Source: Deltaproteobacteria bacterium
GTDB lineage: Bacteria > Desulfobacterota > Syntrophobacteria > Syntrophobacterales > Syntrophobacteraceae
NCBI GenBank assembly: GCA_021777755.1
Contig: JAJYDE010000022.1
Span: 1-59,957 of the forward strand
DNA: 59,957 nucleotides
Direction: 5' to 3'
Shown piece by piece: positions 23,926 through 28,015 of the stretch. The position numbers and the translations under genes are program-made. Numbering within the stretch: position 1 is the first letter of the stretch; the number at the start of each line of letters is the position of its first letter. The notes below the pieces were generated by a model, which had not been told where the DNA came from, made no database searches, and saw only the letters and a list, made by a program, of their open reading frames with translations.

Positions 23926-25602
23926 TCACACCTTGAATTCGGACATTAGGCTTTGGATCTGAGCGGCCAGTGCGGAGAGTTGCTTGGCGCTCGACTGGAC
24001 CCGATCGCTTCCGCGCTGAATTTCATCGCTCGCACCGCTCACCAGAGCAATCTCACCCGCAATCTCCAGGGATCCTGTGGCCATCTGGGCCACCTGTTCG
24101 GTCGTGCTGTGCACCCGAGTGGAAGCCTCGGCAATATTGGACGCAACATCGCGGGTCACAACCGATTGTTCCTCTATGGCCGCGGCGGTGTTCGAGACGA
24201 GGTCCCGGACCTGTTTGATGACGTCTGTGATCTGGAGGATTTCCTTTACCGCCCCGCCGGTCGATGCCTGGATGGAGGCGATTTTCGCTTTGATATCCTC
24301 TGTGGCTTCGGCGGTTTTTTGCGATAGTTCCTTGATCTCGTTGGCCACAACCGCAAAGCCTTTTCCCGCGGCGCCCGCCCGGGCTGCTTCGATGGTGGCG
24401 TTAAGGGCCAGCAGGTTCGTCTGGGTCGAAATGCTTGTGATCGTATCGCTCACATTGCCGATTTCTTCAGCCTCCCGGCCCAGTTCTTTCATGATTGCCG
24501 CCAGTGCCTCGGTCTGCTTTGCCGCCTCCTCACTGACAGACCGGGCGTTTTCCGAGTTTGCCGCAATCTCTCCGATTGTCGCGCTCATCTCTTCTGTGGC
24601 CGAAGCCACCGAAGTTATGTTGGCGCTCATCTGCTCCATGCTCTCGGCGGACGAGGCCCCGCTCGCACTCGAGCGGTCGGCGGCCGCAGCCACCGTGGAC
24701 GCCTTCAGGGAGATGTCCTTGCCGCCGGAAGCCAACTGATCGGATATTGTCAAAAGAGCCGCCGATGAGGAGTTGAGATGTTGGGCGGCTGTTAATATTT
24801 CGCTTATCATTTTACGCAAGGATTCATTTACAAGGTTCATCCTGGCGCACATGTGTCCGATTTCAGACCGGCCCTTGACGTCGACGTGGACCGTGAGGTC
24901 GCCTTGTCGCATGCGAGCGCCGGCTTCGAGCAGTTTGCGAATGGGAAGATCGACTATCTTTCTCACCATGAAGTACATCGTGACCACAAAGATGAGCGCT
25001 CCGAAAACTCCGAAGGCAATGCTTCGGTTACGGGCCGAAGAGGCGGCTTCGACCTCGTCGGCTATGGATTGGCGAACCAGAACGCCCCCGAGAACTTTCC
25101 TGGAGTTTGCGTGGCAGTGGATGCACTCGGGAGCGTTTAAAATGGGTCTGAAGATGGTGAGCGCGGGTTTTCCGTTGAAGCTGTCTTCGACTTGATCACT
25201 GGTTGCCTTGCCCCTGTTCAGTGCGGCTCGTATCCGCTCAGCCGCGGTTTTGTTTGCAATGAGACTTTCCGCTTTTTTGCCAATGGCCCCCGGACTGCCT
25301 GCGAAGGTAATGAGGCCGTTAAAATCGAAAATCGCCACCTCCAGCCCTTTTGTATTCCTCTGCAACCTTCGAAGCTGGTTTTCGACGCTTTTGCTGTCGC
25401 CCCTGGCAAGGTCTTCGAACATCCCGCCCTCGATCGTTCGGATAAGCCTTTGTCCATCCTTTCGGAGCTGAAGTCCGGCAAGGTCCCTTTGCGCCCGAAT
25501 GCCTCCCCATATGATGAACCCGAGGATGCAGAGGACAAGCCCCAGAAGCGGCAGGGCCAACTTCACCCACAGTCGCTCATTTAGCAGGGCGAATAGTTTC
25601 AT
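23926..25602 (-). CDS. methyl-accepting chemotaxis protein with a heme c motif in its sensor domain
   Basis: 558 residues from the ATG at 25602 (GGAG upstream). It has a first transmembrane helix (residues 14-34), an extracytoplasmic sensor domain, and at residues 160-164 the sequence CIHCH, a CxxCH heme c attachment site, in the context RPILNAPECIHCHANSRK. A second transmembrane helix (about 194-214), a HAMP domain and the methyl-accepting domain follow; the tip reads NATIEAARAGAAGKGFAVVANE. Heme-bearing chemoreceptors sense redox state or oxygen in delta-type anaerobes. A tetraheme cytochrome gene ends 31 bases upstream, so the two are probably one operon and may exchange electrons (inference). 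Confidence 0.95.
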   Translation of the reverse strand: MKLFALLNERLWVKLALPLLGLVLCILGFIIWGGIRAQRDLAGLQLRKDGQRLIRTIEGGMFEDLARGDSKSVENQLRRLQRNTKGLEVAIFDFNGLITFAGSPGAIGKKAESLIANKTAAERIRAALNRGKATSDQVEDSFNGKPALTIFRPILNAPECIHCHANSRKVLGGVLVRQSIADEVEAASSARNRSIAFGVFGALIFVVTMYFMVRKIVDLPIRKLLEAGARMRQGDLTVHVDVKGRSEIGHMCARMNLVNESLRKMISEILTAAQHLNSSSAALLTISDQLASGGKDISLKASTVAAAADRSSASGASSAESMEQMSANITSVASATEEMSATIGEIAANSENARSVSEEAAKQTEALAAIMKELGREAEEIGNVSDTITSISTQTNLLALNATIEAARAGAAGKGFAVVANEIKELSQKTAEATEDIKAKIASIQASTGGAVKEILQITDVIKQVRDLVSNTAAAIEEQSVVTRDVASNIAEASTRVHSTTEQVAQMATGSLEIAGEIALVSGASDEIQRGSDRVQSSAKQLSALAAQIQSLMSEFKV

Positions 25603-25633
25603 AAAAGAGGCTCCCTTCAATCAACAGTCGATT

Positions 25634-26095
25634 TTAGTGGACACCGCCGTAAACCAGGGGCTTTACGCCGAAGGATTGAATTGTCCGATCGCTGTGACAC
25701 TGTTTGCAATCGGCGGCGGTGAGTTTGCCCTTGATGTCCTTCTTGTCCCCTGTCTGGTAGTGGAGGCTTCCCGGACCGTGGCATGTTTCACAGCCGGCCT
25801 CCTTTAGCCGCGGGGTTTGCCGCAAGGAACGGAACCCTCCCGGTTGCCCGTAACCGGTCGTGTGGCATTTGTAGCATCCCTGCAATTCCGATTCGGTCAG
25901 CCCTTTTTTCATCAATGCCACACTTTCGTAGGATTTTGCCTGCTTCGAATATTTCATGAACCTTTCATACTCTTGCGCATGGCATGTCTTGCATGCCTCG
26001 GAGCCCACGTAGGTTTTTTTATCTCCGGCTCCCGCCGCGCCGGAACAAGTACAGCAGATTCCGATAAAAAGCATGATTGCCGATGCGTATCGCAT
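25634..26095 (-). CDS. periplasmic tetraheme cytochrome c
   Basis: 153 residues with a signal peptide (AIMLFIGICCTCSGAAGA) and four CxxCH sites: CKTCH, CYKCH, CETCH and CKQCH. The spacing and the YVGSEACKTCHAQEY start resemble cytochrome c554-type multiheme proteins. It is exported to the periplasm, where hemes are attached. Being just upstream of a heme-type chemoreceptor on the same strand, it may report electron flow to that receptor, or carry electrons in respiration. No terminator separates the two genes. Confidence 0.93.
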   Translation of the reverse strand: MRYASAIMLFIGICCTCSGAAGAGDKKTYVGSEACKTCHAQEYERFMKYSKQAKSYESVALMKKGLTESELQGCYKCHTTGYGQPGGFRSLRQTPRLKEAGCETCHGPGSLHYQTGDKKDIKGKLTAADCKQCHSDRTIQSFGVKPLVYGGVH

Positions 26096-26380
26096 GCCGA
26101 ATGTCCCTTCTGGCTGTTACTTTCGGTGAAGCACTTTTGGCCCTTGCTCCGGCGGCAGACGGCCGTCGGCGGACAGATGAAGCGGAAAAGCTAAAGCAAA
26201 GAAGTGGCCCCCGCCTGTCAGGCTTGGAATGCCAATCGGAAAAATGGATAAAAACCTTTAAAACAAAGAATTCCTTCAAGCCCCGAGCTTTGTTTTACGA
26301 TCCATTAATGTAAACCCCGGACTGCGACGGCCTCCTTGGGTTTAAGCGCGGGAAAGTTTTTGGCAACTGAAAGGAACACG

Positions 26381-28015
26381 ATGACCCAAACAGATTTTCA
26401 GCACCTAAGAGACGAGCTTCGCTATGACCTTGAAAAAAAAGACTGGAGAAAGGCACTAATCGTTCTTTCCCATCTGGAGCAAATCGAGGAGGGCCAGCGA
26501 AGGGTCGTGCTCCTGGAATTGAGCCGGGGAGACGCCGACTTCGTCCTGCCTCTGCTGGTCGCCTTCTCCGCCTGCTACCCCCGGATATATCAAGCGCAAC
26601 CGATGCTTCGGGGGTTGCTCATCTCAAAGGCGATCGATTATCCCGACCTTTTGCTCAAAACTCTTTGCGACCTCGAGACTCAAAACAAGAAGTTGTGCGT
26701 GGAGATAACGGGTGAAATGCGCCTGGAAAAGGCCGTGCCGCATCTGATCGAAATGCTGCTTTCGGCCGGGGACCCCGAACTCATAAAGTCGATCATCGAT
26801 ACTCTGGGGCTCATCGGACTCTCGGACGCCGTGAGCGTTATAAGCGATTTTCTCTATGTGGATAACAGGGAGTTGGTGGGGTGCGCGGTTCGGGCGCTCG
26901 GGAAAATCGCCGCCCCCTCGGCCATGTTTCGACTGGCCGAACGGGTGGGAGGCGATCACGACCTGGACAAGGTGATCCTCGAGGTCTTCTCCGAGGTCCA
27001 GGACAACACGGCGCTCAAAAAACTCAGTGAGACGATCGGTTCCCACCATGCTCACATACGCAGCTTGGCCAAAAAGCTCTTGGTTCGCATCGGAGAAAAG
27101 TCCGTCCCCTATGTTCTGGAAAATCTGCGATCCGATGATGTCGACCTGCAGATCAATTCCCTGAATGTGTTGGGAGATATCGGCGATGTGAGCGCGGCAG
27201 CCCCGATTCGCAAACTGCTCGGCTCCGGGGTCAAAAACGCCAACGTGCGCTTTGCGGCCTATGAAGCGCTCTCCTTTATGCCCGCGGTCCAGGGGGCCTA
27301 TGTGCTTGCCGGTGGACTGACAGATCCGGTTGAGCATGTGCGGATCGCCGCGGCCCGGGCCGTTGACCGTAATTACAACGATCTGCTGAGTATGGGGCTG
27401 CGCAATATGGTTCGGTTCAAAAACGAGGATTGCGACCGCATGGTGAATACGATCATCCATGCTCAGGCCGATAAGATCTTCCTTGATCTGCTGGACGAAG
27501 TGGTTTTTCAGCAAACCGCGGTCGAAGTGATTCGAAAGGTTCACGCCGATCTAAGGGATCATTACGCGGCTCTTCTGCTCTCCAGGGGATACAAGGAAAT
27601 AGCCGAAAAAATCCTGCCTGAAAAAGCCTCCGAGGCAAGGAAAACCAGGGCCTGCGCCGTGGACGATTCCCGTATGATTCTGAGCTTCTATAAAAACACT
27701 CTTCACGAACTTGGAGTCGAGTCCGTGCTGTTCGAGTTTCCCGCGGGCGCAATCGAGTGGCTCGAAAAGGAAAAGCCCGATATCGTCTTTACCGACCTTA
27801 ACATGCCAGAGATAACCGGGATCGAGTTGACCCGAAGAGTTCGCCAAATATATTCGGCTCAAGAACTGCCTATCATCATGGTGACCACCCAAAGCGATGT
27901 TCAGGACCATGAAGCGGCAAGGAGGGCCGGGGTCAGCAGCATCCTCTTTAAACCCTTCGACAAGGCGGCTTTGAAACATTGCCTGGACGAGTATTGCCCC
28001 GCCGAAACTTCATAG
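26381..28015 (+). CDS. HEAT-repeat protein with C-terminal receiver domain
   Basis: 544 residues from ATG 26381, behind AAAGGAA. The first 400 residues are alpha-helical HEAT-like repeats (AVPHLIEMLLSAGDPELI, AVSVISDFLYVDNREL, SVPYVLENLRSDDVDLQ and others). The last 125 form a CheY-type receiver with all phosphorylation residues: VDDSR acid pair, TDLNMPE (the phospho-acceptor Asp), the VTTQS switch region and FKPF lysine. There is no DNA-binding or enzyme output domain, so phosphorylation probably changes protein binding by the HEAT scaffold. It diverges from the cytochrome/chemoreceptor operon across 285 bases; a shared pathway is inference. Confidence 0.9.
   Translation: MTQTDFQHLRDELRYDLEKKDWRKALIVLSHLEQIEEGQRRVVLLELSRGDADFVLPLLVAFSACYPRIYQAQPMLRGLLISKAIDYPDLLLKTLCDLETQNKKLCVEITGEMRLEKAVPHLIEMLLSAGDPELIKSIIDTLGLIGLSDAVSVISDFLYVDNRELVGCAVRALGKIAAPSAMFRLAERVGGDHDLDKVILEVFSEVQDNTALKKLSETIGSHHAHIRSLAKKLLVRIGEKSVPYVLENLRSDDVDLQINSLNVLGDIGDVSAAAPIRKLLGSGVKNANVRFAAYEALSFMPAVQGAYVLAGGLTDPVEHVRIAAARAVDRNYNDLLSMGLRNMVRFKNEDCDRMVNTIIHAQADKIFLDLLDEVVFQQTAVEVIRKVHADLRDHYAALLLSRGYKEIAEKILPEKASEARKTRACAVDDSRMILSFYKNTLHELGVESVLFEFPAGAIEWLEKEKPDIVFTDLNMPEITGIELTRRVRQIYSAQELPIIMVTTQSDVQDHEAARRAGVSSILFKPFDKAALKHCLDEYCPAETS

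Follow-up and report, generated by a model that had tools for sequence, protein, structure and literature searches.

Periplasmic receptors carrying a c-type heme have been known since DcrA of Desulfovibrio vulgaris, and both the signal that they sense (redox state, oxygen or nitric oxide, NO) and the source of electrons for their heme are unsettled. DcrA is a c-type heme chemoreceptor responding to oxygen or redox, and the heme domains of GSU0582 and GSU0935 from Geobacter sulfurreducens titrate at -156 and -251 mV, with an axial ligand that switches with the redox state (PMC8396549). Here, we analyzed a stretch of 59,957 nucleotides (hereafter the window; contig JAJYDE010000022.1 of assembly GCA_021777755.1, from a Deltaproteobacteria bacterium of the phylum Desulfobacterota), whose minus strand encodes a chemoreceptor of this kind directly downstream of a tetraheme c-type cytochrome. 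The kind of receptor and the cytochrome family were already known and their pairing is the new part: no description of it was found in the literature, most subscription journals lying outside the search, so that novelty is not proven.

The conservation of the pair in dozens of genomes of anaerobic bacteria suggests that the two proteins jointly inform the swimming apparatus of redox or oxygen conditions. A near-obligate cytochrome partner is a concrete answer that can be tested in sulfate reducers amenable to genetics. It predicts that work on sensor domains alone overlooks half of the system and, if true, would tie electron transfer by multiheme proteins directly to how the cells swim.

Linkage of the cytochrome and receptor genes

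A first-pass annotation of the window had pointed to a CIHCH motif at residues 160-164 of the receptor and to an upstream protein with four CxxCH sites. Both genes were confirmed on the minus strand, with the receptor downstream and 31 base pairs between them:

25634..26095, minus strand: tetraheme c-type cytochrome gene, 153 amino acids, exported, Cytochrome_C554 family
23926..25602, minus strand: methyl-accepting chemotaxis receptor, 558 amino acids, with the order transmembrane segment, heme Cache sensor, transmembrane segment, HAMP, methyl-accepting chemotaxis protein (MCP) signalling domain

Cytochrome and heme receptor form an almost obligate gene pair. Profiles of the cytochrome and of the sensor domain were searched separately against 395 genomes of the phylum and the positions were then matched. 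All 44 cytochromes scoring above 160 bits have a heme sensor as the next gene downstream on the same strand, and the cytochrome stands upstream of 42 of the 56 sensors scoring above 100 bits. Of 14 members of a divergent cytochrome subfamily scoring about 100-113 bits, 11 are paired; the next-lower C554 homologues, UshA-like or larger proteins, are paired in none of seven and were excluded as family members. The close cytochrome is mostly single copy (44 in 41 genomes) and located at the receptor gene. This linkage excludes chance co-location of the two genes, and the concern raised in the first-pass annotation, that the pair might be specific to this strain, is dispelled by its presence in dozens of genomes.

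The same arrangement was found in the loci inspected individually. The first 59 relatives yielded 16 loci (L002-L017), not counting the window, with a close cytochrome homologue, each with a CxHCH sensor protein immediately 3' of it. In a set of 44 named contigs (L051-L094, where L054 is the same contig as L004, from G009, a genome of the window's genus), the sensor lies downstream of the cytochrome in 37; it starts but is incomplete in L064 and L082, the sequence ends at once in L053, and the gene order is reversed in L092. Where assigned in detail, the named records belong to Desulfobacterota and Nitrospirota, the latter also carrying the pair (L059, L063 and L065). Cytochrome and sensor distances are correlated (r 0.62, permutation maximum 0.23), a value to which shared genome ancestry contributes. 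The cytochrome is better conserved than the sensor domain (median identity 53% versus 25%), as expected for a protein with several contact surfaces.

The receptors share a further mark, a His preceding the second Cys of the heme motif. This CxHCH form is present in 72/72 sensors from loci gathered around the cytochrome and in none of 20 weaker unpaired heme sensors inspected; the strong unpaired sensors have it in nine cases and lack it in five (72/72 versus 9/14, Fisher p 6e-5, four of the five exceptions being from one genus). As a mark of pairing, CxHCH is thus only suggestive. The five strong unpaired sensors without it (L177, L178, L179, L180 and L185) have CYNCH or CYQCH, and in four of these five genomes the close cytochrome is missing as well; the middle His and the partner may be lost together.

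Divergent pairs, at least 11 in the phylum sample, are exemplified by L095:3962-6554 and L101:3887-6539, where a C554-type cytochrome with a different C-terminus precedes a CYKCH sensor with a kinase output.

The two proteins and their gene neighbourhoods

The cytochrome matches Pfam Cytochrome_C554 (PF13435) at 68.6 bits (cut-off 20.8, E 9.6e-19). Its N-terminus is a hydrophobic signal segment, and it has exactly four CxxCH sites:

25979..25993, minus strand: heme site 1, CKTCH, residues 35-39, Cys-Cys-His invariant in the family
25862..25876, minus strand: heme site 2, CYKCH, residues 74-78, invariant in the family
25778..25792, minus strand: heme site 3, CETCH, residues 102-106, followed by GPGSLH with the invariant His112
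25694..25708, minus strand: heme site 4, CKQCH, residues 130-134, nearly invariant
25637..25645, minus strand: C-terminal G-V-H, last residue His153, an invariant terminal His in a GGAH-type end

The terminal His is present in every cytochrome of a 45-row alignment, with GGAH the usual ending. One relative (L068:3992-4384) has CIHYH, with one Cys missing, as its fourth site. The AlphaFold2 (AF2) model of the cytochrome has a predicted local distance difference test (pLDDT) score of 85, with the C-terminal tail at low confidence, and its best fold match is cytochrome c554 (1bvb; Foldseek E 2e-3, template modelling score 0.50), on which it superposes by VIA with a Z of 9.3 and 3.6 angstroms over 125 residues at 26% identity. 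In c554 the distal heme ligands are His102, His27 and His179, and heme 2 is five-coordinate. His112 of the window cytochrome pairs with His102 in the alignment; the position of His27 is occupied by Tyr49, and His is not conserved there across the family. Given these c554 ligand assignments, two of the four cytochrome hemes may lack a His distal ligand.

For the receptor, the ATG at 25602, with GAAGGGAG just upstream, is the preferred start over a TTG at 25620. Its features are as follows:

25015..25497, minus strand: periplasmic single-Cache sensor domain, about residues 36-196, AF2 pLDDT 91
25111..25125, minus strand: heme site CIHCH, residues 160-164, with His162 the family-specific middle His
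24076..24555, minus strand: MCP signalling domain, residues 350-509, Pfam MCPsignal 1.6e-28

Since it lies between two hydrophobic segments (residues 9-38 and 193-217), CIHCH is predicted to be on the periplasmic side. A HAMP domain is recognized by Pfam at 1.7e-7, and the sensor domain scores 34.9 bits with Mcp40H-20_sensor (PF21563, cut-off 27) and 17.5 bits with the Tll0287-like model PF11845, under the cut-off of 24.1. A Foldseek search with the sensor-domain model ranked GSU0935 (3b42) first, followed by the Cache domains of WalK, CitA and others. The protein thus belongs, on domain matches, to the known c-heme Cache sensors (GSU0582/GSU0935; "sCache_heme"), in line with the heme binding proposed in the first-pass annotation, the heme itself being predicted. 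The receptor has Ala165 where the family has Gly. Genes for cytochrome c assembly and for FlhA are present in the host genome, which makes both heme attachment and motility plausible.

The outputs of the receptors are interchangeable: an MCP domain is present in 29 of the 40 scanned and a histidine kinase domain in the other 11 (two of the latter being the divergent CYKCH type of L095 and L101). We do not claim repeated output swapping, since the cytochrome tree, which is weakly supported, needs just one change between MCP and kinase. In L051, L052 and L061 the pair lies within a che operon, beside CheA, CheR or CheW; several kinase versions are followed by response-regulator genes. The first-pass proposal of an energy-taxis sensor pair therefore holds as to the pairing, while "energy taxis" is too narrow for a family in which a minority of loci feed a histidine kinase; electron donation or reporting by the cytochrome to the receptor, and energy taxis as the output, are likewise inferences on our part.

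In Desulfovibrionaceae, a desulfoferrodoxin (Dfx) gene lies within about 4 kb of the pair in L079/L171 (one species), L087, L089 and L170, and rubrerythrin is near it in L072, L079, L087 and L170. The gene order in L089 is cytochrome, CHHCH receptor (MCP), desulfoferrodoxin, rubredoxin and Roo-like protein. No oxygen-defence genes adjoin the pair of the window. Two large multiheme cytochromes, with 18-19 and 15 CxxCH sites, stand directly upstream of the kinase-type pair in L078:1-3922 and L094:86-3888, which suggests a link of the pair to a long electron-transfer chain.

Upstream of the window pair, a divergently transcribed gene (26336-28015, plus strand) encodes a HEAT-repeat protein with a response regulator receiver domain at its C-terminus. 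A sigma-70-type promoter was sought upstream of the pair and none was found, which says little. On contig C9 of the same genome (L172:1938-3464), a second CxHCH receptor of MCP type, with CTHCH, has an N-terminus very like that of the window receptor. In L056:3902-6773, a family cytochrome sits inside a che operon and is followed by CheA, with no heme receptor; that metagenome-assembled genome also has a normal pair, at L055.

Proposed electron exchange and its rivals

We consider it somewhat probable that the pair is a redox or oxygen sensor working by electron exchange between cytochrome and receptor, the most economical reading for a heme receptor whose gene almost always accompanies that of a multiheme electron carrier. 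From the observed pairing, domain content and conservation, we propose that the cytochrome would sit in the periplasm, equilibrate with the electron-transfer chain, oxygen or another oxidant and pass electrons to or from the single heme c of the receptor, whose redox and ligation state would move the Cache dimer and the transmembrane helices. CheA activity would be set by this movement, so that swimming would follow redox potential or oxygen. Candidate residues for contact or heme ligation are His162 of the receptor and the invariant His that ends the cytochrome. The oxygen-defence genes adjoining the Desulfovibrionaceae pairs argue for electron exchange, as they fit DcrA, an oxygen- or redox-sensing receptor. 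A wider proposal, which we make more tentatively, is that the cytochrome is the component in touch with the environment or the electron-transfer chain, that it writes its redox state into the receptor heme via a specific docked complex, involving the CxHCH His and the C-terminal His, and that this unit, in Desulfobacterota and Nitrospirota alike, serves either chemotaxis or a histidine-kinase output, DcrA being its classical, incompletely described example.

Several observations weigh against electron exchange. Fourteen strong sensors have no cytochrome beside them, the L172 receptor of the host genome included; given these, the receptor may act on its own or through a shared cytochrome, and the L172 receptor may share that of the window. 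Conversely, in three named contigs (L056, L083 and L093) the cytochrome is present and no heme sensor was found beside it. The axial Met60 of GSU0582/GSU0935 corresponds to Leu65 in the window receptor (Met in 51/72 and Leu in 20/72 across the sensor set), and the redox-driven Met switch of Geobacter is therefore not directly transferable. Finally, a signalling-type sCache_heme protein, membrane-bound and carrying a HAMP domain, binds NO tightly and releases it slowly, with a koff of about 6e-4 per s (PMC12889525).

This slow release is an argument for the main rival, in which the receptor heme senses NO (or another gas) directly, a role proposed for signalling sCache_heme domains, and the accessory cytochrome either clears NO or related oxidants or maintains the receptor heme in the ferrous state. 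The sCache_heme protein of that study also forms no stable O2 complex (PMC12889525). The replacement of the axial Met by Leu in the window receptor could also leave an open heme site. Cytochrome c554 of Nitrosomonas has one heme able to bind NO, and an open heme is possible in the present cytochromes because His27 of c554 is absent from the family alignment. Conversely, in the loci examined, a partial neighbourhood survey, no NO-handling genes were seen but oxygen-defence genes were present, and DcrA senses O2 or redox state according to PMC8396549; on balance we regard direct gas sensing as unlikely.

Electron transfer might also be dispensable, the redox or heme-loading state of the cytochrome being read by protein contact with the receptor. 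A cytochrome acting on a sensor kinase has an analogy in apo-TorC, which acts on TorS, and the near-obligate pairing, the co-variation of partner distances and the invariant C-terminal tail ending in His, of low confidence in the model, would all suit such signalling. However, contact alone would not need the receptor's own heme site, which is kept in 72/72 sensors, and the terminal His of the cytochrome may simply ligate heme 4; we hold signalling by binding to be improbable.

An operon of convenience, in which the cytochrome carries electrons in the periplasm generally and the receptor senses alone, would accommodate the orphan receptors, that of L172 in the host genome among them, but it is already strongly disfavoured by linkage that is complete over many families, extends into a second phylum and is unexpected for a general carrier, and by a close cytochrome nearly always kept in one copy at the receptor gene, so that we hold it to be very improbable.

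Comparison with described systems

DcrA is described as a lone receptor, and no cytochrome partner was found mentioned in the literature searched, whereas the window receptor has one; the latter also differs in having no PAS domain, Ala165 in place of the family Gly and no adjoining oxygen-defence genes. Family members from Desulfovibrionaceae include CHHCH receptors that adjoin Dfx, rubredoxin and Roo, as in L089. The dcrA gene of D. vulgaris reportedly adjoins rbo-rub and carries CHHCH, and the L089-type locus, as a lead only, may be the DcrA locus.

GSU0582 and GSU0935, with their Mcp40H-20 sensor, have the same domain order and fold as the window receptor but carry CQSCH and the axial Met60, where the window receptor has CxHCH and Leu65; the literature examined mentions no paired cytochrome for either. 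The sCache_heme proteins (DUF3365/Tll0287-like) likewise combine a Cache fold, with CxxCH inserted between beta strands, with MCP or histidine kinase outputs, as in the family of the window receptor, although the window protein scores below the PF11845 cut-off; NO sensing is assigned to them in PMC12889525, with no mention of an adjacent tetraheme cytochrome.

On the cytochrome side, c554 of Nitrosomonas europaea (PF13435) shares the fold and the heme spacing, His102 being the counterpart of His112. The window cytochrome is shorter, has no aligned His27 and ends in an invariant His, and its gene lies beside that of a receptor, whereas the neighbour of the Nitrosomonas c554 gene is hydroxylamine oxidoreductase. 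TorC and TorS offer a further parallel, in that a dedicated c-type cytochrome is used with a membrane sensor, as in the window pair; TorS, however, is no heme protein, the domains are unrelated and TorC is a respiratory subunit.
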